NCBI GenBank assembly: GCA_950295325.1 | Contig: OX485803.1 | Coordinates: 54,759,554 to 54,823,553 of the forward strand | From: Polytrichum commune | Lineage: Eukaryota; Streptophyta; Polytrichopsida; Polytrichales; Polytrichaceae | Length of the DNA: 64,000 nucleotides | Reading direction: 5' to 3' | In this document: positions 645-55,501 of the stretch, in pieces | How the letters are laid out: the number at the start of each line of letters is the position of its first letter | Position numbering within the stretch: position 1 is the stretch's first letter | Position numbers and translations under genes: made by a program | Notes under the pieces: model-generated | The model's database searches: none | Told to the model about the DNA's origin: nothing | The model's input: only the letters and a program-made list of their open reading frames with translations

Positions 645-672
645 AGAGAGAGAGAGAGAGAGAGAGAGAGAG
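645..672. repeat. (AG)14 microsatellite at left outer edge of retroelement
   Basis: An uninterrupted AG tract directly before the left terminal repeat. The right terminal repeat is preceded by only four AG units (5912-5919). The tract may be the insertion target or may have been generated on insertion. Confidence 0.9.
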
Positions 673-1630
673 CTGGGCATTTCTTGGTAAGAGCTAAGCT
701 TGTATTCAAGCATAGTCCTATTCAGAAAACATCCTCCATATGGTGGCCATTCCATTCATATACATATCTTTGTACTATTTAGCAAAAACCCGGGTGGGTG
801 GGTGGGATCCCTCCTCATATCAGTACAATACATGTCTTAGTAGGTCTACTATAAGGTGTAACCATGGTTTGACACCTTCTCTTGCATACAACTCATATTC
901 AACTAACCCTATATACCTTGCATTTCTTTGAAGTTACTATGTATATACTATACAACTCCTTAGTCAAAAACTAGGAAGGACCATTGTCATCATGTGCACT
1001 TCAAAATATAACCCAATAATCAATATATGTGTAAGTATTCATCATCTCCATCAAGGAATACATACAATATATGAGCACTAAGTGTATGAATCCAAAAAGG
1101 TAAACAAACTCTAAGGATGTCGTTCAAAATTGTGAAGGGTCTGCCTCACCTGTGCCCATGCAACCAACCAACAAAAAATGAGGATTAGTCACGTACCCGA
1201 GGTGAATAACAGCAGAACCCAATTGTTATCTATGTCACACAATCAAACAACAATACATCTATTGATTTTGCATTACCACATACTCCGTAAGAGAGTATTT
1301 TACCTGTTCCTTTGCCATTGAAGTTTCTTGTGGGGTCAGATTGAAGCACTTAGCCTAAATCACCCACTAGTTAACTTCCTCTGCCCTAATCACAGAGTTT
1401 ACCAAAGATAACCGTTTAGTGTGGTTCAACCTTTGAGTGAAAAGGAACTTTCTCAGGTCCTTGCTCTTGATATATGATTAGGTTTACAATCTTGTCCGTA
1501 GATGCCATGAGTAGAATCTATGGTGGACAGTAGTTAGGTAGAGTTCTTCTAACCCTAAGGTACTTATCCTTTAAAGATTAGATTTACAGATCTCAGTAAT
1601 TTATGTTTGGCAAAGTAAAAACAGAGTATA
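673..1630. repeat. Left direct terminal repeat of retroelement (958 bp)
   Basis: Collinear with 5920-6877 at a constant offset of 5247 bases with no indel. By eye the only difference is T744 versus A5991. In the minus-strand orientation of the element this is the 3' repeat. It is followed inward by a short GA tract (1631-1647) and about 200 bases of noncoding sequence before the RT stop codon. Confidence 0.93.
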
Positions 1631-1846
1631 GAGAGAGAGAGAGAGAGGCCCGCCACCAAAAAACCCCTGGTATGTATAATATTTGGATCTCGGGAGTACA
1701 TACTAATGCTTGGTTAAACAAGGATTACACTAGTATGTATCCACTATCGGCTTACATACCAGTCCCCTTATTTTTAACTCAACTCTGCTCTCGTTAGTAG
1801 CCTATTAATCAGGCATGTCTTGCTCTCTTCTAAACTCAGATTCATG

Positions 1847-4051
1847 CTAAAAAGTGCCTGGGTTGCCGGTAAGCTTACCTTGAAATGCCGTGATTAAATC
1901 CTTAACCTCGAATCTGACAGCAGGGTAGTTAGTTTTGGAGATGGTTGCTATTACCAGTTGTAGAAGCTTCTGTTTGCGGAATCCGTTGCTGGTTAAAGTA
2001 GAAATCAGTTTACCAAGTTCTTGCTTAGCCATATTCATATCATTAGACAAATACAATATGGGTATTGTCTGTGATACGATGACATTGTACGCTTGTTTTA
2101 CTGGTCTGTTAGAGCAAAATTTAATATACTGCGTATATAAGAATGGGAGTTCTCTCCGTTTATCATATTTCTGGAGTGTGAATTCACCATCATCTTCATT
2201 GGTGATTGAAACCAACACATTCATAAAATGTGCCTTGATCCCAAGAGTAGGGTTAATTATGGAAAAGCATGCCACTTCCGTTTTGATTTCCAAAATATGT
2301 AAAGGATATATCCAAAACGGGTTGGATGATGTCCTGGGTTGTTGTGGGTCAAGGAAAATACTTGCATTACCATTGTTGATCCAACAAAGATCATCAATGT
2401 ATCGGAATGCATGCATAAATTTTCCCATTAAGTCAACCCTCCCAAGTTTAGCTAGTCTTTGCATAAACTTGATCTCGTATGACATTAGGTACAGGTTACA
2501 CCAAAGAGGGGAGCAGGAAAATCCCATTGGAATACCCAATACTTGCTTCCATACCCTATTCCCTAGTCTCACATAGCAGTTTGTTGTAAGCCACTTGTGT
2601 AACATCAAGAATTCACTCACTGATATTTGTAGCCATTTGCCGTAGCTTGGGCAAGTAGATGCCCAAACTACTCTAGTAGTTACACCCATAGCATTGACTT
2701 TGACCCAAGCTCTTGGTTCCGATCTAGGATATTTACGTTTGAAATTTTTGATCCCTAAAGAAGTAATAAATTCCATAGCTTCAAATAGGGTATCTTGGCC
2801 ATTTATTGGTATAGTCTCAAAGCATCTTGTAATGTCCGCCACATATATGTTGTGGACTTTTTGTGGGATGTTGAGACAAAACTCATTGATGGAATCAATG
2901 ACCCAATATACGGATGTATCAATTCCGAGGAAATTTTTGTAACCTATGACTGTGGTTTTAGCCCATTGTTTAACCTCCTCAAGGAGAGCCATAGTAGCTA
3001 CCGTTACAAGGGTAGCCATGTTGACATAGATGGATCCAAAAGCATTTGTGATCCATCTATATTTTTTCTTGTGGAATTTGTAGATAGCCATGATATATGG
3101 TAATTCATGGCTATCATTATGTAGTTCCGGTAGGAGTTCATGTATAGTCCCTTGCAGGTATTTGATAATTTCCTCAATGGACTGCCATTTGTCACCGTCT
3201 TTGCAAGGTAGGAAGTCTCGACTACTTAGCCTTTCCAATGCTTGTTGTCTAATATGATTTATGCATATAAAACATGCATTATTAGACGCCTTATCCAAAC
3301 CGGACACATATACATGCTTGAGGAGCCAGTTAAGCTCATCCATTACAGGTTTAACTGTAAACAAGTAAGGTTGAGAATACCTGAATCCAAACTTGTTGAG
3401 CTTGTACGCATTAAGTAGAATCCCCCTGCTTCTCTGGCGTACCTCCTTTGTGGCCTCGTTTATGTCCAACAATTGCTCCACATTGAGTACATGGCATACT
3501 TGTAAGAAGGTATCATATATGACTTGGATCGCTTCATGTATGGCCGTAGGTCTCAAAGGTATGTGGTTGAGCCCCATTTGAATGGCATTTCTCAAACCCT
3601 TATGTTGAATAATGGATATATCCATTGTTCTAACATGTCCTTTACTCTTTTCCTCATTGTGTTCATCCAATGTATCCTTGTCAAGGAATTTGTAGAATCT
3701 TTTAGAGGATTGACATATGCACATGTCCTCTAGATTCAATTCTTCAGGAATTTCAAACTCTTTAAAGACCATGCTTGGTTTGTAACAATACTTAGAAATG
3801 TTTGGATGGTAACTCCATGCAAACATTATATTAAGTAATGCAGGTATGACCTGCGGTATGGAGAAGAACATGAAAATTTCAGAGAAGAATTTTTTCATGT
3901 TGATCCATTCCAAAGCCCTATTGCAGTAAAACACATGTACAATACCGGTATACTCCGATTTTTTGCTTTTGGTAATAACTTTTCTGCCTATAGAGTTGTT
4001 TTTGACCTGCCGTATATCACCTGGTTCAAAAATATATATATATTCAGCCAT
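1847..4051 (-). CDS. Reverse transcriptase, Penelope-like (734 aa)
   Basis: Predicted RNA-directed DNA polymerase of the retroelement. The frame is open for 734 codons from an ATG. Visible RT motifs in order: a P-x(5)-Y-K-F-H-K region at about residues 318-328; motif A, VADITRCFETIP, at about 404-415, with the catalytic Asp at 406; motif B, GIPMGFSCSPLWCNLYL, at about 506-522; motif C, RYIDDL, at 550-555, with Asp553 and Asp554. After the palm, a segment with YDKR at 629-632, then CSNRP and a GFRKQKLL stretch, resembles the thumb region of Penelope-type RTs. The first 300 residues contain a conserved-looking HVRTMDISII...GLNHIPLRP block that I do not recognise as a nuclease. No GIY-YIG endonuclease is visible. 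All catalytic residues are present, so the enzyme could be active. Confidence 0.88.
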   Translation of the reverse strand: MAEYIYIFEPGDIRQVKNNSIGRKVITKSKKSEYTGIVHVFYCNRALEWINMKKFFSEIFMFFSIPQVIPALLNIMFAWSYHPNISKYCYKPSMVFKEFEIPEELNLEDMCICQSSKRFYKFLDKDTLDEHNEEKSKGHVRTMDISIIQHKGLRNAIQMGLNHIPLRPTAIHEAIQVIYDTFLQVCHVLNVEQLLDINEATKEVRQRSRGILLNAYKLNKFGFRYSQPYLFTVKPVMDELNWLLKHVYVSGLDKASNNACFICINHIRQQALERLSSRDFLPCKDGDKWQSIEEIIKYLQGTIHELLPELHNDSHELPYIMAIYKFHKKKYRWITNAFGSIYVNMATLVTVATMALLEEVKQWAKTTVIGYKNFLGIDTSVYWVIDSINEFCLNIPQKVHNIYVADITRCFETIPINGQDTLFEAMEFITSLGIKNFKRKYPRSEPRAWVKVNAMGVTTRVVWASTCPSYGKWLQISVSEFLMLHKWLTTNCYVRLGNRVWKQVLGIPMGFSCSPLWCNLYLMSYEIKFMQRLAKLGRVDLMGKFMHAFRYIDDLCWINNGNASIFLDPQQPRTSSNPFWIYPLHILEIKTEVACFSIINPTLGIKAHFMNVLVSITNEDDGEFTLQKYDKRRELPFLYTQYIKFCSNRPVKQAYNVIVSQTIPILYLSNDMNMAKQELGKLISTLTSNGFRKQKLLQLVIATISKTNYPAVRFEVKDLITAFQGKLTGNPGTF

Positions 4052-4180
4052 ACAAACTATTTAAAGATCTGTCAGCATTGCAGATGAACATATTAGCTAG
4101 GTAAACTGGCTTATAGCAGCTAATGAATTACAAATGCCCACATTAGCCACTGCCTAGTTGTATCCTATCCCTGGTATTCA

Positions 4181-5848
4181 CTAGATATCCTCCTCCCATA
4201 GTAAAACTCGAGCCTTTAGTGGGGACGACAGCTGGTGGCGTGCTGTAGTTCCCGTTCGGGCGCCTGGGGTACTGTCAGTTGTGCTGGGTGACCCTAGGCC
4301 TGTCTCGCAGGTGTTAGCCGTTCGCCCATGAGCGTTGAGGTTAGGGTTACGAAACCCTGACCTTCCACCTCCGCGGCCTCTCCAACTTCTGCCGCCTCTC
4401 TGCGCTGGGCTGCTACCCCGCATTGAAGGACTGCTCCGACCTCTTCCTCCCGCATAGTTTCTCTCAGAGGGGGAAGAATTGAGATTGATTTTCTGCTTTT
4501 TGAATGGTGATGGTGCTTTACTAGGAGATCCTGGATGGGCGAGAGAGAACTTTGGTCCTTTGAGTAGTCTCTCTATCTTGCTAGCGATTGGAGTATCCGC
4601 GATATCCTTAAGTAGTCTTTGACTAGGATCCTCGGATAATTGAGTCGCTGCTTTGATCATTTGCTCTCTCCCTATTTGAAACACAATGGCGGCTTTCACT
4701 GCCACTCTAGCTGACTCATGCATCCAAATCATGAAAGCTGCTAGTATAGCAACAGTAGTAGGATAGTTTGGGAAAAAGATCTCCAGCTTGTTGATCATGG
4801 TCCACACGGCGTGATCAAACCAAATGATTGATCCTTTGCATCCACTTGTTGCTCTAGGGTTGCAAAGGCATCTCATGTATGGGCGCTGGACATTTCACAT
4901 CTCTGATAAATGTGAATCCTTCCTATTGTGCCCTGTAGGTAGATCTTGCTTTGTGTGTAGTTTGACCTCCTCTGTAGTGCACTTTGAATGATCAAACATA
5001 TTAAGTGGGAAAGCATGCATCAAATCCATTGGTGCCCTTAGCACACCAATGTTGTTGAATGCTTGCTTTTTGAAATTTTCCACTTCTTGATCTGAAAATC
5101 CTGCCCAAGCCTTCCACATGGGGATGGATATTGGGGCTATGAGGTTTGTATTCCCTATTGCCCACATTCTATGCTGAAAATCTGCAACTAGTAGCTCCAC
5201 ACTTCTAGTTGGTTTGATTGGGACTACTGGTCCTTTACTTGCAATCATTGTATTTTTGTGTTTCTCGGCTTGGGAAAGTTGAATACCATCACTGAAATCC
5301 TCTAAAGCTGATAAATCTTCGGCTGAGATTGCCAGCTTCGCAAGCAGTGGATGTGTAACAGAACCAGTGTTGTTACCGGAGTCTATTCCAACTACTGTAC
5401 TGGCTGACTCTGGATTAAGCTCATCTGCATTAGCTAGCTTGAGAATAGCTTCTACTTTCTGTGCTAGTTGATCAGCCTTCTCGGCATCAACTTCGTCCTC
5501 AGCTAGCAACTCTGGTAACTTATCCTGTGCAGATTTGAGCCTAGCAATGGCTTTCGGTGGATCTGCGGTAGCAAGGACAAACAACGATGTCCACGCCGCT
5601 AAGTCTAGAGAATCCAACAGAAGGGGGGAATGCAGACCTTCTTCGTCTGTATCGCTGATAGCAGCGAGATCTGCTTCCTGTAGGCTTGTATGAAACTCCG
5701 GGATGTTGATAGCGGCGATAGTAGACTGTACTGCCGGTATCGGTGCTGGCAACGGGTGTGCATACCCGAGCTTCACCAGATCCTCACACCATGCCTGAGT
5801 CTTTTGTTTAGACTGTGTCACATATTATGCATTAACACAGTCAGACAT
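4181..5848 (-). pseudogene. Retroelement ORF1 (Gag-like, RG-rich C-terminus) with two in-frame stops
   Basis: One continuous minus-strand frame upstream of the RT. An ATG at 5848-5846 is followed by a TAA at codon 8 (5827-5825). The frame then stays open for more than 300 codons to a TGA (4897-4895), and continues in the same frame to a TAG at 4183-4181. The 927-base middle portion has no early ATG of its own. The C-terminal part has a KKQK basic stretch and an RG/RGG-rich block (for example GGRSWRGRGGGRSG), typical of nucleic-acid-binding proteins. The order ORF1-RT and the RG box suggest a Gag-like RNA-binding protein. Long open stretches around both stops argue that they are recent, or that they are bypassed. 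I do not recognise a capsid fold. A spliced or non-AUG start is possible. Confidence 0.6.
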
Positions 5849-5919
5849 TAAGTACTAAAGATATGTACTAGAATGGATGGTAGCAGTTTCCATGCTGCTA
5901 ATGGGTGTTCTAGAGAGAG

Positions 5920-6873
5920 CTGGGCATTTCTTGGTAAGAGCTAAGCTTGTATTCAAGCATAGTCCTATTCAGAAAACATCCTCCATATGGAGGCCATTCC
6001 ATTCATATACATATCTTTGTACTATTTAGCAAAAACCCGGGTGGGTGGGTGGGATCCCTCCTCATATCAGTACAATACATGTCTTAGTAGGTCTACTATA
6101 AGGTGTAACCATGGTTTGACACCTTCTCTTGCATACAACTCATATTCAACTAACCCTATATACCTTGCATTTCTTTGAAGTTACTATGTATATACTATAC
6201 AACTCCTTAGTCAAAAACTAGGAAGGACCATTGTCATCATGTGCACTTCAAAATATAACCCAATAATCAATATATGTGTAAGTATTCATCATCTCCATCA
6301 AGGAATACATACAATATATGAGCACTAAGTGTATGAATCCAAAAAGGTAAACAAACTCTAAGGATGTCGTTCAAAATTGTGAAGGGTCTGCCTCACCTGT
6401 GCCCATGCAACCAACCAACAAAAAATGAGGATTAGTCACGTACCCGAGGTGAATAACAGCAGAACCCAATTGTTATCTATGTCACACAATCAAACAACAA
6501 TACATCTATTGATTTTGCATTACCACATACTCCGTAAGAGAGTATTTTACCTGTTCCTTTGCCATTGAAGTTTCTTGTGGGGTCAGATTGAAGCACTTAG
6601 CCTAAATCACCCACTAGTTAACTTCCTCTGCCCTAATCACAGAGTTTACCAAAGATAACCGTTTAGTGTGGTTCAACCTTTGAGTGAAAAGGAACTTTCT
6701 CAGGTCCTTGCTCTTGATATATGATTAGGTTTACAATCTTGTCCGTAGATGCCATGAGTAGAATCTATGGTGGACAGTAGTTAGGTAGAGTTCTTCTAAC
6801 CCTAAGGTACTTATCCTTTAAAGATTAGATTTACAGATCTCAGTAATTTATGTTTGGCAAAGTAAAAACAGAG

Positions 6874-6877
<4 letters not shown>
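5920..6877. repeat. Right direct terminal repeat of retroelement (958 bp)
   Basis: Partner of 673-1630, with one substitution in 958 bases. It lies about 70 bases upstream of the ORF1 ATG in the element's orientation, so it is the 5' repeat and should carry the promoter. I looked by eye for a hammerhead ribozyme core, known from some Penelope-like repeats, and found none. Confidence 0.93.

Positions 6878-6929
<52 letters not shown>
6878..6929. repeat. (GA)26 microsatellite at right outer edge of retroelement
   Basis: An uninterrupted GA tract immediately beyond the right terminal repeat. The same junction after the left repeat (1631-1647) has only about nine units. Confidence 0.92.
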
Positions 6930-7672: not shown

Positions 7673-8034
7673 TAATTATTTATTCATATCTAGCCCTTTA
7701 TGTCCATGGTATCTTATATGTACCACTTAGGTAATTTTATGATGTTATGCCAAATGCCATATTACATATAACCATGTTATGCACACCTAGAGCACCCTAA
7801 ATTATATGTAATTATGTTTAAAATAACCATAATTAATATATGAGACCCTATATTTTATTGTATTTAAAAATTTCAATAAAAACATGTAACCTCTTACATG
7901 GATTATTCCAAAGTTTTCGAGTTAGATCTATAAAAAAAAATTGTTTGCATGCACGTTTGCATGCAATATTTCCCTCTCACCCCAAGTAGATCTTGTTTCC
8001 CAACACCTACCATAGGGGGTGGGGTAAAAACATA

Positions 8035-33407: not shown

Positions 33408-35764
33408 TAAGGCCCCTTGAGGTTTCTCACAAGATGAATATGTTTCATCCAAATTTACATTCTACCCCCCAAAAGTTCACATGTGCTAATGCATATGGCA
33501 ATATTTATCATTCCCTTGTGTCATATTTCAATGAAGTTGTCAATACAAAATAGTTTAGAGCAAGCTCATTCATTCCAACATCTGCATCTCCATTTGGGAG
33601 TGGAAGATGGCCTTGCTCCCGAGTGAAGATGCAAATGTAGGCCATTCCCACACTCATCGTGCACTCCATCCCTTTCCATTTACCAATGTTGCATTAACTT
33701 TTAGAGTGATGGCCACAATGCAGCTTTTGGTTTTATGGATTGTACTGGACGATTATTTCACCCCCTTACAATTAACTGGAAAATTCAAATTGGCAATTAC
33801 TTGTAAGTAAACAATGAACATTGACAATTGGAATAAGATAATTTAAAAAACATGATTTCTAAATATCATTGTTATCATAATAACAACAATTGGTTGTAAT
33901 GTATATCTTTAATATCATAAATACATAGATTAATTGTGACAAGACTTATTCTAACTTGGAATAATTCTACCTAGTAGGTACATTGATATGTGCAATTAAG
34001 CAAACAAGTTTAATTCAATTATTTTCTTTAATCATACATCTATATTTGAGTGGTATGTGGTTTGGTGTGACTTCAAAAATGGATACCAAATATACATGTT
34101 CTTAAAAGGGATTGGCAAACCAATAAGGTATGTGGGTGCTACTTGGTTCCTTTTTCATGTTCTCCAACTTCTACCTATTAGATGTACACAACAAAACTCA
34201 TGTTGCATTAGCAAATCTACAATGAAACATATGCAAATACCGGGTTGAAAATCAAACTCCCTTGATTTAGTTTAGGGTTATTGAAAGTGCATGATTGTTG
34301 ATTTCTTAGTTGGATACACAGGTCCTCCCAATGGTGTCATTGTTGAGTATAGAGTAGTTATTATTATTTGAAGATGTAGTTCAACCTCTTTTAAACATTG
34401 CATCTTACATGTGTTTGCTCTTTGATCCTCACTAAACCACACACCAATCAAGTATAGGGGTCCAATTAAGAGAACAAGCCACTTAAGACCCATCTACCTT
34501 ATTAATCCACCACCCCCAAAATGTGGACACGCGTATTTGAGTGGTGTGTGCATGTAAGAATGGGCACCTAAAAGAACATGTGTCTAAAAGAGATTGGAGT
34601 ATATATGTGCTCAAAACATGTTAACCATTTCAGGCTCAACAATCAACATAATGGGAGGAGGGGGGGGGGTTTGACCTATATTCATAAGAATGTCATAAGG
34701 AAAATGGTTGCATATACGATTTAGATTTCTAATGGGTGTAGAGAGAGAAGTGTCCTCTTAAGGTCACTTACCTTATGTAAACTCATCCTTTGTAAATGGA
34801 ATGACTCTATAAAAAAACAAGTCTTTACAAGTTGAGGCTCATTCCATTCCAAATGAATACCACTAAATTAGCAATGGGTCTCTTATTCTGTTTATGAAGT
34901 CATATTAGCCATGTTTAGTAAACCCACTATGGGTTGACATATGAGGTCACAACTATGATCAAGGTGAAGCTCCCTCATTCACGCCAACACCAAAGGTTGT
35001 CATCGTCTCTCTTTGGAGTCACATTGTCTTTAAATAGAACATTCTTATTATTAAATAGTTTCACATTTTGACCAATGTTGGATGAATATCATCTTTAATT
35101 TTATACTATTTAGGTGTCTATAATGAGGATTTCTTCAAACCAAGTTGGGTATTAATATTTGAGAATTTCTTTTGTTTTATAAACCATTTTGGTCAAAATA
35201 CATGATGCAAGAATCTTCATACCTAGGTAGAATTGCCATGGTATCAATATGGTTTAAAATGGTATTGATCCAAATAATAACTTGGGTATACAAAGATTCT
35301 CTCACCTTAAGACACCCACTGAATATCAATATTGGATTGGCATTACAATTTTGACACCCATGGGTGGATAAGTTCGTTGATACCATTGTGGATGTTGATT
35401 TTTGACTAATGATACCCATGTATTCACCTATGTACGGGTCCAACATTGCTTCTGACCTCCCTAGTGGAAATGTTTACGAAGACATCACAAACCCTAACCG
35501 AGACACACGTCATATATAAGGCAAATGTGTCTAATTTAGTGTTTGACCTTAAATGGACAACTATATTTGAGTGGTGTGTGTTTGAATGTGAATCTAAAAA
35601 TGGACATAAAACATGTGTTGAACACATAGTGCACTGTGTGTTCAAAAATTTCCTAACCATTGTAGATGCATATAGTCAAAATATTTGGGGGGGGGGGGGG
35701 ACCTTTATGATCATATAATAACTCAAAGAATCTTCACTTTGACAATGAACATGATATTCATATG

Positions 35765-36883
35765 GGGGGACGTTGAAGTTCCCCCAACGAACTTATAGAG
35801 GAGGTAGATTCGGGCAAGGGCAGCCGCCCGCCCAAAAATTTTAGATTTTTTGGACCCGACCGAAAATTGTTGCCCACCCGCCCGACTTCAAAAAAACCAT
35901 TGCCCTTGCATTCTTGAAGACCACTTATCCACAAATCCCATATTGAAAGCATTTCACCTTCAAGGTCCAAAATCCAATATATATGTTCACTTCCATTGAG
36001 TAGATAAGCGATTGACTGGGATTTCATTTTCAAAATGAAATCGCCAATAAAGCATGTAAATAACTAGGAAGTCAAAAATATTATAAAACCCTCATTAGCA
36101 CCGAGGTTATGATTTTTGTGACTTGCCATTGCAAGGGTCTTTGTCATTCTTAAAATGGAACTAAATTTTGCAGATTTATTTTTAGTATATTCAGTATTAT
36201 AGTCGAGTTAATACCTTCTACTTTCACAAAGTTTCCATACACATTTAAAATAATTAAGTGTGATTGAATGTAATTAAGTCTAGTTAATTTTGATTAATCC
36301 TAATTAAGACCAATTAAATCAGAAAGTATGCCTACCAAATTAATTAAGCCTTATTAATGATAAAATAGACTTACTAGAATTAATCACACTTAATTAATTT
36401 AAATGCATATGAATACTTTGTGAAAGTAGAAGGTATTAACTCGACTATAATACTGAATATACTAAAAATAAATCTGCAAAATTTAGTTCCATTTTAAGAA
36501 TGACAAAGACCCTTGCAATGGCAAGTCACAAAAATCATAACCTCGGTGCTAATGAGGGTTTTATAATATTTTTGACTTCCTAGTTATTTACATGCTTTAT
36601 TGGCGATTTCATTTTGAAAATGAAATCCTACTCAATCGCTTATTTACTCAATGGAAGTGAACATATATATTGGATTTTGGACCTTGAAGGTGAAATGCAC
36701 TCAATATGGGATTTGTGGATACGTGGTCTTCAAAAATGCAAGGGCAATGGTTTTTTTGAAGTCGGGCGGGCGGGCAACAGTTTTCGGTCGGGTCCAGAAA
36801 ATCTAAAATTTTTGGGCGGGCGGTTGCCCCTGCCCGAATCTACCTCCCCTATAAGTTCGTTTGGGGGAACTTTAACGTCCCCC
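35765..36883. mobile_element. Foldback Mutator-like element, 1119 bp, with 9-bp target duplication
   Basis: ATTCATATG is repeated exactly at 35756-35764 and 36884-36892. The element starts GGGGGACGTT(G/A)AAGTTCCCC, and its right end is the exact complement apart from one base. Inverted arms of about 490 bases (35765-36255 and 36395-36883) are nearly identical, leaving an AT-rich loop of about 140 bases that is itself partly palindromic. Long inverted repeats with a 9-bp duplication are the hallmark of Mutator-like (MULE) elements. The two mirror-image open frames in the arms are a by-product of the symmetry, not genes. Confidence 0.85.
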
Positions 36884-37476
36884 ATTCATATGAGCTCCAA
36901 CCAATCATGAGGAAAGCAACTACAGGTGCAGCTTGGATTTGCAAATGATTTTGCAATTTTTGGGTGTTTCCTATCTTTCATGAAGTGGGTGTAGAGAGTG
37001 AAGCCTTCCTTTACATACTCGGCTACTACCATAGTGGGCTATCTATTTTGACAAAATACACCTTTTCCCCTGAAGTCATGCCATATGTCAATCCTACATT
37101 GGTTGAAACCTCTCAAATCCTACATGGACACTACATTCCGGCACCCCTAAAGATGAAATAGAGCGCCTTCTAGTGTATACAACACGTGGATAAAGTACTA
37201 TTTATTAAGATAGGGATGGCAAGCTCGGTGTGGATATGACCAACCAAGGCATATATTCTTGGGTAGGCCCACCGGCCCATTTGATTCTATGCCCATCCAT
37301 GTAAGTTAGGCTATTTGTATCCATGCCGATGAGCTTCACGATCCTTGAAGATGATCAAAGCTTATTGCTCTCGGTGCTTAGCAACTTGTAAGGCGTACTA
37401 GTAGGGGCTCGCACAACATTCACCCTTGACTTATTCCAACAATGTGATATGGCATGCATCATAATAGGTATTCTTA

Positions 37477-39932: not shown

Positions 39933-42900
39933 ATGGGCGTCCTTCTCCGCCCATCGCCAGCCGCCCTCCTCGCCCCGCCCCTGGCCACACGGGGATCTCT
40001 ACATGGTCATCAGCGACATTCGAAGCTCGTGGGCAGCTTTAGGAACGAGGTTCTGGGTGGCCAAGGCTTAAGGAGCTTGAAGGCATCCACCGTAGGGTTT
40101 AAGGGTTTAAGGGTTATGATGCCTCCCGTTGTGGATGCACAAGAGGTGGAGCATCAGGAGGTTATGGAGGACGAAGAAAGAGAAAGATTAGGAGGAGAAG
40201 GATTTGTGAAAGATTTGGAGCGTATGGATTTGTGTGGGACTTCGAGGGGTTTGTGTGACACGGTAATAGGTGTGCTGGGCGGAGGGCAGCTGGGGCGAAT
40301 GCTGTGTCAAGCAGGCTCTCCTATGGGAGTGAAAGTTGCAGTTCTGGACCCCTTGCCCGACTGCCCTGCATCCCGAATTGCGTTCCGGCACCAAGTGGGG
40401 AGCTTCCGTGACACGGAGGCGGTGAGGGAATTCGCGAAAGATTGTGGTGCGTTGACCGTGGAGATCGAGCATGTGGACGTGGAGACGCTTGAGGCTCTGG
40501 CGAGGGAGGGTGTGGATGTGGAGCCTAAACCCTCCACCATCCGTGTCATTCAGGTAGGTTTAGTGCATTGTATTCTTAGCATTCGTTCCTTGTTCTTGCG
40601 TGCTTTTGCAGTGGTGTATGTGCACCATCTTTCTCCTGCCTCTCTTCATTTCACTCTATCCCTAAGCACCTGGTTGGATGTTCCTTGATCTTTCTCCCCA
40701 GCATTGTAACCATGGCTGTTTGTGCATTTCATGAAGATTCTGCCAATTTTCTCCATAGCCTATCCTTGTGTGGGTAGCCATAGTGAAAACGCGATAGGAA
40801 ATCATTAAGGTTTAGATTGAAATCCTCGCACCTGCCCTCTTCGTTCCTATCCTGGAGCACCTGGTTGGGTGTTTCTTTGGTTTTTTTGGTTCCAGGATAG
40901 TGACCACGACTTGTTGATAAAAGAGTCTCCCACTTTTCTCATAGCCCCTTCTTGTATGACTACCCATTGTGAAAGTTAGTCTGAATTCTCCCAATCCTGC
41001 CTCTCTTTCATTCAATCCTGAAGCACCTGGTTTGGTGTTTTTTGGCTCCATTTTTCTCAACGTTACAACCACCACGACTCTTTGTGCATTTTCATAAAGT
41101 GTTTGCCAAGTTTCATCATACTCTGTTCTCGTATGACTAGCCATTGTGAAAAGTATTCTGATTTCTTTCGATCCTGCCTCTCTTTCACCCAATCCTGAAG
41201 CACCCACTCTTGCATGACTAGCAATTGGGAAAAGAACTCGGGTCATGTTCACAACAGGGAATTATTCAGATTAGGCTGAATTCCTGCATCTGCGCTCTTC
41301 GGCCCTTGTTCTTGCGTGCTTTTATTGTAATGCATCTGCACCACCTTCTTCCTGGCTCTCTCTTTCACCTAATCCTGGAGCACTTGGTTGGGTATTTCTT
41401 GGTTCCTGTTTTCCCAGCATTGTAGTTACGACTCTTTGTGTATTTGATAAACATCGTGCCATTTTTCCCATAGCCTATCCTTATAGGAGGATTCACTGTG
41501 AGATGAATTCTGAGAATCCTCTCAAAGAGTCTGTGCATCGGAATCGTATCTCCACCATCATCTTCCTGCCTCTCTTTCACCCAGTCCCGAAGCACCTGGG
41601 TGGATGTTTCTTGGTTTTTTTTCCAACATTGTAACCATGAAAACTTGTGTCGTATATAAAGATTCTGCCAATTGTTTATAAAGCCTATCTTTATATCGCT
41701 ACCCCTTGGGAAAAGAATTCAGGTCATGTACATAACAGGGAATCTTTTAGATTAGTCCGAGATCCCTTTCACCTGTGCTCTTTATTCCTTGTTTTTAACC
41801 GTGCTTTGCAGTAGTGCATCTGCACCACCTTCTTTGTGCCTCTCTGCAACCCAATCTTGAAGCCCCTAGTTGGGTGTTTCCTGGTTTTGTTTCCAGCATT
41901 GTAACCTCGAGTCTTAGTGTATTTCATAAAGAGTCTGCCAATTTTTTCCATAGCCTATCTTCATATGATTGGGTCATTGTGAAAAGATACAGGTCTTGTA
42001 CACAACAGGGAATCATTCAGATTAGTCTAAATTCCTTGCACCTGCACTCTTTGCTCCTTGTTCTTGCTTGTTTTTGCAGTGTATCTACACCATTTTCTTC
42101 CTGCCTCCCATTTTTTCCATAGCCTATCCTTATATGACTAGCCATTGTGAAAACAAGACTGGGAGTTGTTGAGGTTATATTGAATCCCTTGCATATGTGC
42201 TCTTCGTTCCTTGTTTTTTGGTGCTTTTGCAGTAGTGTATCTGCACCATCATCTTCCTGCCTCTCTTTCACCAAATCCCAAAGCCCCCCCAGTAGGGCTT
42301 TTTGTGGTTCCTGTTTTCCCAGGATTGTAGCCACAACTCTCTGTATTTCATAAAGATTCTACCAATTGTTTCCATAGCCTATCCTTATATCATCAGCCAT
42401 TTTGAATAGAATTCAGGTCCTGTTCACGGCAGGAAATCCTTTTAAAGAGTCCCTGCACTGGAATTGTTCCAGTCTTGGGAACAGAGTTTCTGAAGGTCGC
42501 ATTAATTTGTTCATTATATCTTGCTGGATTTAGGAATCAAGTCTGGATGTTATGTGTGCTTCAGTTGGGAAGACATTCTCATCTTACTCTGCTATAGATT
42601 GATAGTGGATGGTGACATGGTATCCTATGTGCATTGTAGAGGTGATGCTTTGATGCTTGTAGGGCATAGACTGTGTGTAGGACTTTTCTGTGTGCTTTTG
42701 CAGTATATCTGCACCACCATCTTCCTGCTCCACTTGCACCCTATTCTGAAGCACCTGTTGGTTGTTTCTTGGATTTTTTTTGTTTCAACATTGTAACCAT
42801 GACTCTTTGTGTATCGCATAAAGAGTCTGCCAGTTTTTTCCATGGCGTAATCCTATTTCGTTTATGTCTAGCCATTGTGAGAAGAATTAAAGTCATGTAC

Positions 42901-45514
42901 ATGACAGGAAATCATTCAGGTTGAGTCTGAATTCCTTGCTCTTTGTTCCTTGTTCTTGCGTGCTTTTGCAGTATTATATCTGCAGCATCCTCTTCATGAT
43001 TTTCTTTCACCCAATCTCAAAAGCAACTGGTTGGGTATTTCTTGGTTCTTATTTTCCAGCATTTGTAACCACAACTCTTCATGTAATTCATAGAGTTTGC
43101 CAAACTTATTCCATAGCTTACCCTTACATGACTAGCCATTGTGATTTTTATTGTTCCAGTCTTATGAACAGAGTTCTCAAGGCCACAGTAATTTGTTCGT
43201 GAGATACTTCTGCATTTAGGGTTCAAGTCTGGACATTGGGTGTCCTTTAAAGAGGTGATGCTCTCAATCTTGTAGGGTACGACTGCATGTGGGAATCTCT
43301 GTTGGGAACTCTAGAAGAATTTTTTACTTACTGGACATCATCATTCAAAGATCTCACAATGTGCTCTACTTGCTGGCTGATTTTGATAGCATAAACATTA
43401 CTATCATCATCATCGTTCATCTGACTCACACCTCATACATACACCTCCAGGACAAGTACCTTCAGAAGATGCATTTCAAGCAGCATGGGGTTGCGCTTCC
43501 AGAATTCATGAAGATTGACAGCCTAAGTGCTGCTGTGGAAGCAGGGATGATATTTGGGTACCCCCTCATGCTGAAGAGCAGGCGACTCGCTTATGACGGG
43601 CGAGGGAATGCAGTAGCCAAATCAGAAGAGGTTCTCCCCGTTGCCATTGCGGCTCTAGGAGGCATTGAACGAGGTTTATATGTGGAGAAGTGGGCTCCTT
43701 TTGTAAAAGAATTGGCCGTGATTGTGGCTCGTGGCAGAAACGCATGTATATGCTCTTTTCCAGTGGTGGAAACAACACACAAAGACAGCATCTGCCACAC
43801 AGTCGTCTCTCCTGCGCAGGTTGCCCCAGACATTGCAGAAGCTGCGATGCAAGTCGCAGAGAGAGCTGTAGGATCACTTTCAGGCGCGGGAATCTTTGGT
43901 GTTGAGCTCTTCCTTCTTGAAGATGGGAAAGTGCTATTAAATGAAGTCGCGCCGCGGCCGCACAACAGCGGCCATCACACCATTGAAGCATGCTATGTTT
44001 CGCAGTACGAGCAGCATTTGAGATGTATTCTTGGGCTTCCTCTTGGCGATCCTGCAATGAGGGTCCCTGCAGCCATGATGTACAACCTGTTGGGCGAAGC
44101 TGAGGGTGAGGAAGGGTTTGCCATAGCCCATGAGACGATGATGAGGGCGATGTCTGTGCCGGGAGCAAGCGTGCATTGGTACGAAAAGCCGGAGATTCGG
44201 AAACAACGGAAGATGGGACACATAACAGTCGTCGGACCATCGATGGAAGTTGTACGCACTCGGATGAACTGGATCGTCAATGGGAAAGATCGGAGCCAAT
44301 TCAAAGATGAGCCTCTCCAAACACCACCTCGTGGTTCCTCGCTCCCCGTGTTTGCGGTTTCTCCGACAACAGACGGTGGCAGTTCTGCTGCGTCCGGGCC
44401 GCCTGTCAGCATAATCATGGGCTCTGACTCCGATTTGCCAGTGATGAAGAGTGCTGCAGAGGTTCTTCAATCGTTCAACATTCCATATGAGCTTACGGTT
44501 GTCTCCGCACATCGAACCCCAGAACGAATGGCCCAGTTTGCTCAAAATGCTCATAAGCGTGGAGTCAAAGTCATCATTGCGGGTGCAGGCGGAGCAGCTC
44601 ACCTCCCGGGGATGGTGGCCTCAATGACACCACTTCCTGTTATTGGTGTGCCTGTGAAAGGCACATCAACAGATGGGCTGGACTCTTTGTTGTCGATTGC
44701 TCAGATGCCAAGAGGGATCCCTGTGGCAACGGTTGCCATTCAGAATGCGACAAATGCAGGACTTACAGCAGTACGCATGCTGGGTGTCGAGAGTCCGGAG
44801 CTTGATAAGAAAATGACTGAATATCAAAATGGCTTGAAAGAGATGGTGCTTGAGAAAGCAGAGAGGCTGGAAAGAGTTGGCTGGCAAGAGTACCTAAACA
44901 AGAAGTATGAAAGCGAGCCTCTCCAAACACCACCTCGTGATGGTTCTGCACTCCCCATGTTTGCGGATTCTCCGATGACAGACAGCAGTTCCACCGTGTC
45001 TGTGCCACCCATTGGCATAATTATGGGTTCTGACTCTGACTTGCCGGTGATGATGCATGCAGCCGAGATTCTTCAATTGTTCAACATTCCGTATGAGCTC
45101 ACTGTTATCTCCGCACATCGAACTCCTGAAAGAATGGTTCAGTATGCTCAAAATGCTCGTAAGCGCGGAGTGAAAGTGATCATTGCGGGTGCAGGCGGAG
45201 CAGCTCACCTCCCTGGGATGGTGGCCTCAATGACCTCATGTCCAGTTATCGGCGTGCCTGTGAAAGGCTCATCAACAGATGGGCTGGACTCTTTGTTGTC
45301 AATTGTTCAGATGCCGAAAGGGATCCCTGTGGCAACAGTTGCCATTCAGAATGCGACAAATGCAGGACTTCTGGCAGTGCGAGTACTGGGTGTGGAGAAT
45401 CCAGAGCTGGTTAAGAAAATGATTGAGTACCAGAATGGGTTGAAAGAGATGGTGCTTGAGACAGCAGAGAGGCTGGAAAGAGTTGGCTGGCAAGAATACC
45501 TAAACACGAAGTGA
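39933..45514 (+). CDS. Phosphoribosylaminoimidazole carboxylase, PurK-PurE-PurE fusion, plastid-type
   Basis: De novo purine synthesis: converts aminoimidazole ribonucleotide to its carboxylated form, probably in plastids. Two exons (39933-40553, 43451-45514) join in phase to 894 codons. Residues 1 to about 70 resemble a transit peptide. The PurK (ATP-grasp) part starts [18 protein letters not shown], crosses the intron at [12 protein letters not shown] and includes [21 protein letters not shown] and [17 protein letters not shown]. The first PurE domain (about 523-684) has [22 protein letters not shown] and [18 protein letters not shown] second, complete PurE domain (about 726-887) repeats all of these motifs plus the linker EPLQTPPR, with a 606-base (202-residue) period. 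Plant homologues normally have one PurE and about 645 residues. The second copy reads [11 protein letters not shown] where [11 protein letters not shown] is usual. Both copies keep the active-site Ser, His and Arg motifs. The stop is TGA at 45512. Confidence 0.93.
40554..43450 (+). repeat. Intron 1 of the AIR carboxylase gene, built of degenerate tandem repeats
   Basis: A 2.9-kb GT-AG intron. A CCTGAAGCACCTGGTTGGGT-like element recurs about ten times (near 40664, 40853, 41015, 41195, 41375, 41586, 41854, 42283, 42745 and 43014). It is followed by (G/C)CATTGTAACCA, CATAAAGAGTCTGCCA, CATAGCCTATCCTTAT and GACTAGCCATTGTGAAAA blocks. Several units also contain TGCTTTTGCAGT, which looks like a 3' splice site (40601, 41801, 42065, 42221, 42691, 42961). 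The spacing of units varies from about 160 to 430 bases. Confidence 0.85.
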
Positions 45515-47329: not shown

Positions 47330-48205
47330 TAAAACTTCTAACTTACTCATTCACATCTTCATGTGGTAGTAGGCACCCAATCTACCATTTAAGTTTGTGA
47401 AGTTAGGTGCTTGTTAAATCGATGAGAGGGAGTTGTTGCGCATGTGAGCGTATTTCTCATCCGTCCATCATATATTGACACTCAATCCTCAAAGCCTGCT
47501 TTTCTACAAAGCATCATTCTTCAAAAGAAACTTATATGATGAATTAATACTTGCATTATAAATATACACGAACATTGGATTTATCTAGCCTTTATCTCAA
47601 TTTAAGTCTTATTATACAAATTTAATTGTAAAATATAAATATATCATTTTTGCTTCGATGTCCGTAGATCTAACATTAACATGATTGCCTATGCAATTAA
47701 AAAAAAACAAACAATAGAACACCCATACATTGATGAACTACAAAAACAAATTTTTAATATCATCAACAGTTGTTGCTTGCAATTTGTACTTATATTCTAT
47801 GAAGAAAACTCGAACTTCAAAATGTCATATATCTACAAATAATGAACATGCAAGCAAAGCATCCAAGAAAGTTGATGACATCTCCAATAAATATATACAT
47901 ATTATAATACATATTATAATATTGCATATTATATATGAAAATTAAAAGTTTATATTTTATATTTATTAATAATTAATAATTCAAATATTCTCAAATATTA
48001 TTATGCACAAAAATAGATTACTGTACTTTAATGTAGGTTAATACTTGTTGTAATGTTGTACTCAAACATTTGTTGAAATGTGTTTTGAATACCTTACTGA
48101 ATTAGGGCTTCGTTGGCATTTAACTTGTTGGAAGTTTCCGTATGGTTCCAAAAAGTAAAAGTGGAAGATTCTGAATGGTTCCAAAAAGTAAAAGTAGAAA
48201 TTACA
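47330..48205. repeat. Left flank of array unit 1, duplicated at 62940-63745
   Basis: Shared blocks include TTCATGTGGTAGT, CATTTAAGTTTGTGAAGTTAGGTG, CATCATATATTGA, TCTAACATT(A/G)ACATGATTGCC, GCAA(G/A)(C/A)A(A/T)AGCATCCAAGAAAGTTGATG, and GTACTTTAATGTAGGTTGAT(A/T). Units 2-4 have a different left flank (TACATTTGAAC...TTGCAATGAAGAGTCCACCCC), so the array has two kinds of left junction. Confidence 0.75.
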
Positions 48206-48208
48206 CCA

Positions 48209-48215
48209 TATAAAT
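48209..48215 (+). promoter_or_regulatory. TATA box of zinc-finger unit 1
   Basis: TATAAAT, 156 bases before the ATG. The same motif precedes the ORF in every unit (51771, 55502, 59005, 63852), inside conserved sequence ending AAATGGCAAGCAGTATTCACC, the likely transcription start region. Leader length differs between units by multiples of about 23 bases. Confidence 0.65.
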
Positions 48216-48364
48216 GAAGCAAATGGCGCGCAGTATTCACCATTTCCTTTCCTCCTCTTGGAAGCACGCCCGACTTCCTCCTGCAAGCACGTCCGCCTTC
48301 CTCTTCCACGCACGTCCGCCTTCCTCTTGCAAGCTCCATCGTCCTCTTGTTGGCAACCATCACC

Positions 48365-48667
48365 ATGGCTTCCGATCCCATGGACGTAGACTCCATTGGC
48401 GGCGTGCCCATCAAAGAACGTCACCTGCTCGGCTGCGAACATCCATCTCAAACCTCAAGGTTGGTGTCTTCTTGTAACGAGGAAAGGAAGGATGCAAAAT
48501 ATGTTGAGAGGCTCCAAGTAACTCTGCATACGAGCACAAACTCTCCAAGCTTTCGAAGGCCGCCTCCTTCGCGAATTCCGGAAACATGCCGGTTTTGGTT
48601 GAGAGGGACATGCAACCGAGGTGCCCAGTGCCTCTTCCTACACGGCGGCGACTCCATGAAGGAGTAA
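48365..48667 (+). CDS. Small single CCCH zinc-finger protein, array unit 1 (100 aa)
   Basis: Predicted RNA- or nucleic-acid-binding protein. An acidic N-terminus (MASDPMDVDSIGG) is followed by a Ser/Pro/Arg-rich middle and one zinc finger, CRFWLRGTCNRGAQCLFLHG, with the C-x7-C-x5-C-x3-H spacing of classical CCCH fingers (residues about 74-92). The ATG is in good context (ACCATGG). The ORF is complete without introns, a TATA box lies 156 bases upstream, and the same length is kept in all four full units. The finger resembles those of plant C3H proteins, which usually carry more than one finger or further domains, so this may be a truncated derivative. Its partner and role are unknown. This copy has SRLVSSCNEE where the others read VSHCDED. 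Confidence 0.7.
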   Translation: MASDPMDVDSIGGVPIKERHLLGCEHPSQTSRLVSSCNEERKDAKYVERLQVTLHTSTNSPSFRRPPPSRIPETCRFWLRGTCNRGAQCLFLHGGDSMKE

Positions 48668-48693
48668 CTCAAAAATAAGTTGGGTTTCCGCCT

Positions 48694-48935
48694 ACAAGAC
48701 TTGGCAAACTCAAAGCCCCGAGGAAAACTCAGCAAATGCTACAAATAATCTGTGCCATGGAACCACAATGATACAAGACTTGACAAAATCAAAGCCGAAG
48801 CAAATTCAGCAAATGCTACAAATGATCTGTGCCATGGAAGCACAATGATACAAGACTTGACCAAATCAAAGCCGAGGCAAACTCAGCAAATGCTACAAAT
48901 GATCTGTGCCATTGAAGCACAACGATCAACCTTGT
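48694..48935. repeat. 77-79 bp tandem repeats after zinc-finger ORF, unit 1
   Basis: Three units starting ACAAGACTTG at 48694, 48773 and 48850, each ending ATCTGTGCCATGGAA-like. Equivalent arrays follow the ORF in units 2 (from 52233), 3 (from 55940) and 4 (from 59467). Confidence 0.85.
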
Positions 48936-49125
48936 AATTCCCAATCCAGTCAAGCAAAGACCGTGTACATATTGAATCAAACAAATTATTGAAGTTGCAC
49001 AACTTCGCATTGTTCAATTTGAAACTGTCGCATTGGCTAGACTTATCAAAAGATAGCCGATAGCAAGACTACAAAATTGTAGTCGAACATTGTACATACA
49101 TGCACTGAAGCTGGTTTACCAGCAA

Positions 49126-49823
49126 TCAGGAAAGTGCTATAAAGAATTGCATTATCTCTGCTAATTGCCCAATCTCTTCCCAACTCTGCACGTTTTGGCT
49201 CTCTGCATGTTTTGGCTCTCTGGATGTGTTGTTCATGTCATCTCCTAAATTCGTGGCTATCACCAATCTATTGACATCCCACAGGTGACATGTATCACCT
49301 GATTCACCATGAATGTGTCTATTCATTTCCTGTGCAGATCCTACTCTTTCCGTGGAGTAATATTGTAGCTGTTGTACATAAGTCTAGATGGGCAGAGCAA
49401 CAATCTTGAATTAGATCGCACTTGACTTTCAAGAATTGCATAGGTGTAACGAGGTGATCTGCAGATGGAGACGATGTGTATGGATATAATGTTACAATGT
49501 GAACAATAGTATGAAGCATGCGAGGCAACTGTAGGTATCCACTTTCAAGGAATACAACCTCTAGCGACTCTGAGAATATGGAATCGGTGCTCCTGAAATG
49601 GTGTGTAGTCCAGATATCATGAGCGTGGGAAAGCATCCAAAAATTCACTAACCACAAAATACAAGACCTGTGAAAAAGTGTGGGATACCCGTGGGAACAA
49701 TTCAAATTGAATAAGTAACTTGTTGCTATTCAGCAGATCCAAAGTGTACATGAGGCAGTTTGACACGGAGATGCTAAGTCTAATAACGCTCAGAAGTTGA
49801 TCACATGTTCCACCGCCAGCCAA
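49126..49823 (-). pseudogene. Decayed minus-strand gene fragment, unit 1
   Basis: Three overlapping minus-strand frames with coding-like content: MAGGGTCDQLLSVIRLSISV... (49823-49617), then a frame containing GYLQLPRMLHTIVHIVTLYP (49705-49319), then MNRHIHGESGDTCHLWDVN... (49326-49126). Equivalent frames occur in units 2-4. Frame changes between the parts may be introns or decay. I do not recognise the family. The 3' part is homologous to the fragment at 32079-32300 beside RPS23. Confidence 0.4.
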
Positions 49824-50127
49824 GGCTACTGTAGAATCTCTAAAAACAACGTAATCTCATTTTTCATCACTTAAGTCTCCAAGCGAAAGAGTAGTTTCAG
49901 CCAGTTCTGTAACAAAGAAGGCCTCTGACATCTTAGTCCTCAAGAAATACTCTGGGAGTGGACAACCCATCAACCATCCTGGAGTATCGATTGAGCCACG
50001 AGCCTCAATTTGGCAGGAAACTTATCCAGTCACATAATCCCATAATTTGCATCCACCATAAGGCTGGGAATAATCAGAGCTATAAGCACACTCGACATTG
50101 CATTTGTTCTTTTGTTTTTCCTCAGTA

Positions 50128-50250
50128 GGGTTTCTGACTCCGACTTGCCGTTGGTTATGCGTGTAGCCGAGATTCTTCACTTGTTCCACTTTCCGTATGA
50201 CCTCACTGTCGCCTCCGCACATCAAACTCCCGAAAGAATGGTGCATTAAT
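50128..50250 (+). pseudogene. PurE fragment of AIR carboxylase, unit 1
   Basis: About 40 codons related to the second PurE domain: a SDSDLP stretch, a frame slip, then VAEILHLFHFPYDLTVASAHQTPERM and a stop. It lacks everything after the first active-site loop. The Arg of the SAHRTP motif is replaced by Gln, so it cannot be functional. Sequence from the 3' flank of the AIR carboxylase gene follows directly. Confidence 0.88.
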
Positions 50251-50559
50251 GGTAGGTTTAGTTTAAATCCTTTTTGGGTTCTTTGCGATTTTGATTAACT
50301 TTTGTAGGGTAGCCAAGGTAGAGACATAATACACATTCAGGTTTCAGAATTTCCCATACTACCAACCCGTGACCCATCGAATCGTTAGTGATCACAAGTT
50401 GGGACTGCATGCACTGCACTTTGTTTTCCCACGAGAATTGCCCACTAATCACCCAGGGTAGGTAACTGCATATTGAAGTGGATCACAGACACAATATCAT
50501 TGCGACCATGAAGATTGGCTGGCATGTTAGTGGAGAGATACTAAGAATCCCTCTGGACA

Positions 50560-51640
50560 ATTGAAAAGATTACCTGCAGTCTTGGTGGTGGAGTCTTGGT
50601 GGTAATTACACACTATATTCGTTAGTTTGAGACTTTCTCTTGTCTCAAATTAATATATGGACCACAACAACATGGTGGAATGTTTGGGTTGTCCTACCTA
50701 AATCATCTTGATATATGTTCTTAATTGGGTTCTTGATATGAACACCCGCTTCAAAATATTTGTATCTTATAAGATTCTACAATATATGTGTGATTTTATC
50801 CATGTTCTTATATTTATAACTGTTTCAAAATGCGGAAAAAGTCCCAAATTAACGAATACATTGATAATATGGTAAGTGCTTAAAGTGAAAGTTTTAGGAC
50901 CATCTACATTTGAACGTAGTGGACAGGCCTAGAATTAAGAGCAACTACAATAACTGTTCAATCACATCCTTGGAAGCATGGGGAATGTGCAAGTCCTTTA
51001 CAAGTTCCTAAACCTATGATGACCCTTGCCATGATTCTCATGAAGGATTTTGAAGTTCATGAACATGCATACAAATAGCCTAACTTGTGAAGAGTGCCAA
51101 TTCATTAATTCAATGTCAATGTTCTAATTTATTATACACAAAACTAGATTATTGCAAATATGTTGTGATTTAATGTAGATTGATACTTGTAGTCTTGGGG
51201 GATGGACTCTTCATACCATGTACAAAGCAACGTGAGTGTAGAAAGCGTTTAATTTTAGGCATTACCGTACATAATACATAAGGAAGAGGTATTGTTTCTC
51301 ATCAACGTGTACATTGAAAATGATTATTAAGATTTTTGAAGTAAAGGCATACATACAAAATGGGACCCTAAGGTTTAGAAAAGAAATGACAATATAATCC
51401 CTTAATGACTTGTATATTTAATAAAGGCATGTTCATTTCATGATTTGTATTTCGTGTATTTAGTGGGGGAATTTATCACATTAAATTGAAAGCCTAAGTA
51501 TGAATATACAAGTCTATTTCTAGCCTATCATTAGTACGTATACATTTTTTCCCTTTATTAAATTCTCTTATATTTGGTGCTTTATTTCATAGCCACCCAC
51601 ACACATCATTTACGTTTGCAATGAAGAGTCCACCCCCGGG
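50560..51640. other. AT-rich spacer of unit 1, no gene recognised
   Basis: Noncoding spacer shared with unit 3 (57800-58870), and with units 2 and 4 from a GGTAAGTGCTTAAA(A/G)TGA(A/G)AGTTTTAGG block onward. Confidence 0.6.
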
Positions 51641-51770
51641 CTTGTAGTATTGTTGTCCTCAAACATTTGTACAAATGCCTTTTCAATACATTGTCGAATT
51701 AGGGCTTGGTTGGCATAACTTGTCGTGCAAGTTTCCTTATGGTTCAGAAAGCAAAAGTAGAATTACGCCT

Positions 51771-51778
51771 TATAAATA
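51771..51778 (+). promoter_or_regulatory. TATA box of zinc-finger unit 2
   Basis: TATAAATA, 133 bases before the ATG at 51904. Confidence 0.65.
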
Positions 51779-51903
51779 AGGCAAATGGAAAGCAGTATTC
51801 ACCATTTTCTTTCTTCCGCTTGCAAGCAGGCCCGACTTCCTCTTGCAAGCACGTCCGCCTTCCTCTTGCAAGCTCCATCGTCCTCTTGTTGGCAACCATC
51901 ACC

Positions 51904-52206: not shown

Positions 52207-52609
52207 CTCAAAAATAAGTTGGGTTTCCGCCTACAAGACTTGGCAAACTCAAAGCCCCGAGGAAAACTCATCAAATGCTACAAATGATCTGTGCCGTGGA
52301 ACCACAATTATACAAGACTTGGCAAAATGAAAGCCCCGAGGAAAACTCAGCAAATGCTTTAAATGATCTGTGCCATGGAAGCACAATGATACAAGACTTG
52401 GCCAAATCAAAGCCGAGGCAAACTCAGCAAATGCTACAAATGATCTGTGCCATTGAAGCACAACGATCAACCTTGCAATTCCCAGTCCGGTCAAGCAAAG
52501 ACCGTGTACATATTGAATCCAACAAATTATTGAACTTGCACAACTTCGCGTTGTTCAATTTGAAACTGTCGCATTGGCTAGACTTATCAAAAGATAGCCG
52601 ATAGCAAGA

Positions 52610-55370: not shown

Positions 55371-55501
55371 CTTGTAGTATTGTTGTCCTCAAACATATGT
55401 ACAAATGCCTTTTGAATACATTGTCGAATTAGGGCTTCGTTGGCATAACTTGTTGTGCAAGTTTCCTTATGGTTCAGAAAAGCAAAAGTAGAATTACGCT
55501 T

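Follow-up and report, generated by a model that had tools for sequence, protein, structure and literature searches.

Endonuclease-deficient Penelope-like elements (PLEs) are on record in plants from Selaginella and conifers (PMC9033089), and those of Selaginella are telomere-associated (PMC12477314). In rotifer telomeric PLEs, repeats of the RNA that are complementary to the DNA end are used (PMC6431247), and in a vertebrate PLE reverse transcription starts inside the RNA, at a site which sets the genomic 3' end (PMC11167929). According to a review, all available PLEs carry a hammerhead (PMC6155905), and microsatellite targeting is known from non-long terminal repeat (non-LTR) elements that bear an endonuclease (EN) (PMC4640811). 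Here we describe an element of Polytrichum commune that lies on the minus strand at 645-6929 of the analysed 64-kb window (contig OX485803.1, or C1, 54,759,554-54,823,553; the assembly has 408 Mb in 64 contigs), all coordinates below being window positions unless stated otherwise. It is likely an EN-deficient PLE, recently active, which inserts in CT/GA microsatellites.

On its sense strand, the element reads from 5' to 3' as (CT)26, a pseudo-LTR (pLTR), open reading frame (ORF) 1, ORF2, GGCGGGC, (CT)9, a second pLTR and CAGCT(CT)n. Comparison of the direct repeats (665-1647 vs. 5912-6894) aligned 983 nt with one mismatch (744 vs. 5991) and no gap, by which the 958 bp with one mismatch given in a preceding sequence-only reading of this DNA are borne out, and the unique part of the pLTR equals 966 nt once the GA tract is excluded. 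GA tracts of the plus strand occupy 645-672, 1630-1647 and 6878-6929 of the element. Its parts, in sense order, are as follows:

6878..6929, minus strand: (CT)26 on the sense strand, bordering the element at its 5' end; the microsatellite targeted, to which the element may have added units
5912..6877, minus strand: 5' pLTR, 966 nt without the CT tract, from repeat comparison
6374..6492, minus strand: conserved, predicted structured RNA core of the 5' pLTR, from a covariance model match of 146.6 bits and pair counts
5912..5922, minus strand: CAGCTCTCTCT closing the pLTR, from the junctions; putative internal start of reverse transcription
4181..5821, minus strand: ORF1, with a C-x-C...C...H motif and an RG-rich C-terminus; in-frame stop at 4895-4897
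1847..4051, minus strand: ORF2, 734 aa, reverse transcriptase (RT) with D406 and YIDD at 551-554; no GIY-YIG match
1630..1647, minus strand: internal (CT)9 between the GGCGGGC that ends the body and the 3' pLTR, from reading the junction
665..1630, minus strand: 3' pLTR, from repeat comparison
1127..1245, minus strand: conserved, predicted structured RNA core of the 3' pLTR, from a covariance model match and pair counts
645..672, minus strand: CT tract at the 3' junction, from reading the junction

RT matches were found at no fewer than 63 places in the genome (at least 63; 134 candidates, 61 of them scored), with identities of 100% (the window), 98% and down to 39%, and ten near-full copies (the window copy and nine others) were inspected. 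These fall into families A (window copy, L006, L007), B (L008), C (L009-L012) and D (L013, L014), where A and D have 42-43% of RT residues in common. The two pLTRs of a copy are 99.7-100% identical in nine of the ten copies, which supports the recent insertion proposed from the window alone; in L008 840 nt are identical, beyond which the repeats diverge. L010 and L011 lie on different chromosomes and share 99.87% identity over 6.3 kb, so the clade has been recently active. Within-copy pLTRs are closer to each other than those of sister copies (window copy and L006: 99.9% within the copy vs. 98.98% between 5' pLTRs; L012 and L010: 99.7% within L012 vs. 93.7% between 5' pLTRs), so pLTRs are regenerated in each cycle, seemingly from one template. 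The search with the window pLTR returned at least 46 places (807 candidates, 40 scored), namely 6 in three family-A elements, 26 full-length solo pLTRs (pLTRs whose junctions do not run into an element body) and 14 partial pieces. In all ten inspected copies, one CT tract precedes the 5' pLTR and another separates the body from the second pLTR, this internal tract being 16-40 nt long across copies.

As for the target, a CT tract is present at the 5' junction of 10/10 full copies and 26/26 full-length solo pLTRs (9-101 nt in the solos), CTCT is found at the 3' junction in 24 of the 26 solos, and the sense strand is the CT strand in all 26 solos and all 10 full copies; the remaining 57 kb of the window have three GA/CT tracts at least 10 nt long. 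Three insertions (L007, L035, L040) share one dispersed repeat, the empty sites of which were searched for with a site-spanning pattern leaving 2-30 free bases between (reversed control 0), and a CT tract is present at 19 of 19 such sites, with odd bases breaking it up in three. A search with the joined flanks of ten other insertions gave empty paralogues for three (L036, L020, L019). Those of L036 have CTCTC or longer in all six fetched, several only CTCTC, and tracts as short as this may be sufficient as a target, while those of L020 have a TTTC/CT pyrimidine tract in 7/7, with CTCT itself in 6. Insertion at pre-existing CT/GA tracts is therefore well supported for one repeat, supported for two further sites and not supported for the fourth, L019. 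A different explanation is that CT tracts are made by the element, with an RT that slips or adds repeats, and that the genomic target is just a few matching bases; the internal CT tract indeed belongs to the element, and the L036 paralogues with only CTCTC would agree with this, but the tracts at all of the 19 empty sites and in every L020 paralogue speak for the opposite. A purely element-made tract is thus unsupported, and we regard this explanation as improbable, although the element may contribute in part.

The exact 18-mer GCATGGGCACAGGTGAGG of the pLTR core occurs at 458 genome places (reversed control 0), far above the number of RT places, and the 100 of these that were listed are all on C1, spread from 1.86 to 74.31 Mb of 77.85 Mb. 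The window copy sits at 54.76 Mb, and the repeats at the junctions of copies and solo pLTRs are CT, not telomeric; the element is dispersed and not telomeric.

Some solo pLTRs (L017, L024, L031, L032 and L034) directly follow sequence resembling a pLTR end (GAAAAGTCAG or GACAA before the CT), so copies seem to have been inserted head-to-tail into each other's CT ends; L017 and L024 have a second core about 1 kb upstream.

We propose that a break or nick in a CT/GA tract would offer the RT a GA-ended 3' DNA end as primer, that this end would anneal inside the element RNA at the CUCUCU closing the pLTR (CAGCUCUCU), and that the pLTR would then be copied back as far as its 5' (CU)n tract. At this point (GA)n/(CU)n pairing could carry the copying into a further unit, which might be a second RNA, a tandem RNA or a circular RNA, and ORF2, ORF1 and the pLTR of this second unit would be copied until a stop at (CU)n. 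The product would be (CT)n-pLTR-ORF1-ORF2-(CT)n-pLTR, and a stop after the first step would leave a solo pLTR. A start at CUCUCU together with a jump at (CU)n would account for how the parts are ordered, for the CT tract inside the element, for the identity between pLTRs and for solo pLTRs, the last of which could alternatively come from recombination between pLTRs. The target is probably chosen by this priming on CUCUCU of the element's own RNA. The priming itself, the jump between templates, the condition of the DNA end and the absence of a nuclease are inferred here.

The RT with catalytic motifs that had been read from the sequence is supported by ORF2, which has D406 in motif A, GIPMG and YIDD, and the motif order GLN-IP, DK-, K-HK, motif A, GIPMG, YIDD is one that we take to fit PLEs. 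Pfam RVT_1 matches 8/8 members of the ORF2 alignment, its match to the window ORF2 being weak (E 3.4e-5, 24.1 bits, below the curated cut-off of 29.6). The separate RG-rich ORF1 (5821 to 4181) was also correctly seen earlier, except for the one in-frame stop of the window copy, which was missed, as were the CT/GA target, the predicted structured RNA and the hundreds of further pLTR cores in the genome. Of the nine other copies, six (L006, L007, L009, L010, L011, L014) have an open ORF1; that of L008 runs open for 480 aa to a premature end, that of L012 is interrupted, and no long frame remains in L013. Ratios of nonsynonymous to synonymous change (dN/dS) are 0.06-0.35 for ORF2 and 0.07-0.16 for ORF1 in computable pairs, some of which are near saturation, and for most between-family comparisons dS was not computable because synonymous sites are saturated; both ORFs are under purifying selection. 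No relatives of ORF2 were found in PDB, viral contigs or prokaryote genomes, the ORF1 profile gave three matches in PDB (E 0.87-1.9) that were taken as chance, and AlphaFold2 of ORF2 without an alignment reached a mean pLDDT of 34.

Instead of annealing, the choice of target could be enzymatic: ORF1 or the N-terminal part of ORF2 might hold an endonuclease, unrecognised or highly diverged, with which the PLE cuts its own CT/GA targets, or the cut might be made by a nuclease of the host or one acting in trans. Targets that are internal and specific would suit such an enzyme, as would conserved residues to which no role is assigned, both in the ORF2 N-terminus and in the C-x-C...C...H of ORF1. 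However, GIY-YIG (PF01541) had no match in eight ORF2 sequences (E<=1) or five ORF1 sequences (E<=5), nor had any other nuclease family in the same 8 ORF2 and 5 ORF1 sequences, in agreement with the sequence-only reading, where no endonuclease was visible. In addition, the 13 GIY-YIG places of the genome are all at least 207 kb from the listed RT places (this RT list being a lower bound), and we consider cutting by such a nuclease rather unlikely.

Conservation of the pLTR between families is mostly 30-60% (in 50-column steps), except for a core of about 120 nt, in which identity of A is 80-97% to B or C and 57-67% to D; a second, weaker conserved patch is present near the pLTR 3' end between A and C. 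All four families inspected have the core in their pLTRs, even where RT identity falls to 42%, and the 14 bases GGGCACAGGTGAGG with their surroundings are in the pLTRs of 10/10 copies. Nine cores, taken from families A-C and related pLTRs, were used for a covariance model, which gave 53 matches in the 40 sources searched and detected 5/5 family-D cores (45-55 bits, E 8e-12 to 3e-9). In the alignment fitted to the model (38 distinct rows), 95.5% of cells pair, and changes on both sides are seen in 11 pairs and 56 cells, compared with 6.1 and 9.3 in shuffles and with at most 6 and at most 21 in slid versions, all double changes being confined to helices P1 and P2. RNAalifold on the MAFFT alignment had missed P2 because the distant family was misaligned, which was resolved by a model of the nearer families followed by a search. 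When P2 was paired by hand, 8/8 pairs formed in the window copy, L010, L014, L013 and L026 and 7/8 in L009, and five of the eight pairs differ between A and D. With bulges excluded, a further helix (P4) forms 10 pairs in each of four sequences of A-C type and 9, 10, 5 and 10 pairs in four D sequences, and it shows double changes. Each of the eight cores folded is more stable than its shuffles (z -2.35 to -4.32); the best folds of L008 and L026 lack P1. Over the 38 rows, 12 of the 15 columns of the internal loop UGACAUnGAUAACAA do not vary, nor do any of the four columns of the bulge AUGG. These comparisons show a conserved RNA fold in the pLTR, as predicted from the pairing of bases.

A hammerhead or other known ribozyme in the pLTR was rejected, with no Rfam family at cut-off and no pattern match. 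Rfam gave nothing at gathering score in the window (in the element only HOTAIRM1_3, far below cut-off) and nothing at E<=1 in L006, L007, L008, L010 and L014; with the window core alone, HOTAIRM1_3 scored 15.8 bits against a cut-off of 37 on the opposite strand, which is chance-level, and the L014 core alone had two matches, both below cut-off. The hammerhead pattern CUGANGA...GAAA is absent from the pLTRs of the 10 copies, with one permuted arrangement in L013; outside pLTRs, six copies have it in or near ORF1, against 0.29 per strand expected from shuffles. The core RNA is a candidate for a new family and might act as a ribozyme or be recognised by the RT; it is probably a signal for RNA recognition or processing by RT or ORF1. 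It is possible that the predicted fold is a new self-cleaving RNA. To go further, such an RNA, perhaps protein-assisted, could have replaced the pLTR hammerhead and would supply unit-length or circular templates, which together with CUCUCU annealing would permit spread among internal microsatellites with no EN, but this we put forward only as a tentative and doubtful idea.

Another possibility is that the core is a DNA or splicing signal, such as the 3' terminus of a spliceosomal intron, rather than a folded RNA that functions in the mobility cycle. The conserved ACUAAY and then CACAG|GUGAGG look like a branch point and splice site. According to a review, PLE pLTRs contain introns (PMC11722881). 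Nevertheless, the compensatory changes in P1, P2 and P4 and the folding of all eight cores beyond their shuffles disagree with a mere splicing signal, and the stretch from GUACG to CACAG has only about 45-50 nt, which leaves an intron very doubtful next to the folded RNA.

Several points weigh against an EN-deficient PLE that primes on CT/GA tracts and carries a folded pLTR RNA. Two of the solo pLTRs (L025, L031) have AT repeats instead of CTCT at the 3' junction, the empty paralogues of L019 show CT in 0/5 and AC or AT tracts instead, the 5' CT tract may be partly element-made, and the internal start of the vertebrate PLE is not homologous to its target (PMC11167929). L013 does not have an identical pLTR pair, as its two pLTR regions align at 86% over 179 nt, and L008 is flanked by an odd 172-nt direct repeat. 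In the core, P3 is without a double change (0/9 pairs) and the changes of P1 and P2 come largely from one split of A-C vs. D; with the alignment also fitted to the structure, this means fewer independent events than were counted. A diverged nuclease may still be hidden in the element. Finally, the Penelope-like assignment of the sequence-only reading holds as far as pLTR layout and motif order go, and it is from these two that we infer a probable PLE membership.

The odd repeat of L008 (contig C3, 28156000-28164800) is at sense positions 1431-1602 and 7715-7886 and consists of 71 nt and about 50 CT units; it reflects either a long duplication of the target or switching of the template to the end of a pLTR nearby.

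An ordinary LTR retrotransposon or an assembly duplication, which long near-identical direct repeats might suggest, is highly improbable, since eight other loci have the same structure in different flanks, with pLTR pairs of their own (840-1601 nt, 99.7-100% identical), so that the window repeats are no assembly duplication, and an LTR element is ruled out by the lack of integrase, protease and RNase H matches (window element, 8 ORF2 and 5 ORF1 sequences) and by repeat ends that are not TG...CA, with no target duplication outside the CT tract in the junctions examined.

Elsewhere in the window, an AIR carboxylase gene is located at 39933-45514 (plus strand), with a PurK-like part with ATP-grasp followed by AIRC, and its last exon has two AIRC domains in an internal tandem duplication (44379-44678 and 44985-45284, 85%). 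Over 48200-62900, a unit of about 3.5-3.7 kb is present four times in tandem, with mostly 75-99% identity among the copies; the frames at 51706-52206 and 58958-59440 are similar, and the second matches a CCCH zinc finger. An inverted repeat lies at 35762-36885, and its arms, 511 nt each and 94% complementary, are separated by 102 nt. In the assembly, contig C9 has three GIY-YIG frames within 30 kb, perhaps organelle, and rDNA on C22 (L027, 20 kb) looks fungal; C22 and C9 are possible contaminants or symbionts. By contrast, the rDNA at L028 is plant-like, with a 5.8S stretch of non-seed-plant type.

The element bears on two questions, how EN-less retroelements find DNA ends that are not telomeric and how PLEs make their pseudo-LTRs. 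With a defined dinucleotide target that has many empty sites in the same genome, copies in which ORF1 and ORF2 are both open and an RNA with clear helices, both become testable in vitro in this system, an agent that inserts into microsatellites of a plant genome. In the literature searched we found no match for an EN-less PLE of CT microsatellites or for the core RNA, which does not prove that they are absent in print.

When compared with known systems, the element has the pLTRs from a (partial) tandem arrangement that are expected of PLEs in nine of the ten copies, and 26 solo pLTRs, while the hammerhead, reported as a general feature of PLEs on which the class is not based, was not found in the pLTRs. 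Athena and Terminons of bdelloid rotifers, Coprina of fungi and the EN-deficient PLEs of Selaginella and conifers are telomere-associated and have telomeric repeats and a hammerhead, whereas our element is dispersed, lies in CT/GA tracts and has another pLTR RNA; neither the telomeric location nor the telomeric repeats of Athena and Coprina were seen. The GIY-YIG domain that defines EN-containing PLEs (Penelope/Poseidon, Dryad, Naiad/Chlamys) is not found either. Naiad/Chlamys are PLEs of the green lineage, as the element probably is, with Chlamys reportedly inserting in (CA)n repeats; their N-terminal GIY-YIG endonuclease was not found here. Poseidon/Penelope PLEs, e.g., PAc of Anolis, likewise have tandem-derived pLTRs and an internal RT start that sets the 3' end, together with a C-terminal GIY-YIG, a hammerhead, AT-rich cutting and a start that is not homologous to the target (PMC11167929). 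Unlike these, the element has a separate ORF1, no GIY-YIG match and a putative start site that matches the target. Microsatellite-specific non-LTR elements such as Togen are not known to have pLTRs. Like our element, the (TG)n-specific non-LTR retrotransposon Togen inserts in dinucleotide microsatellites, but elements of this type have another RT class and an encoded endonuclease (PMC4640811). We describe the element as a probable EN-less PLE variant which is not filed under Athena or Coprina, and what seems new here is the combination of an EN-less PLE clade, CT microsatellites and a conserved pLTR RNA, predicted to fold, that is not a hammerhead.

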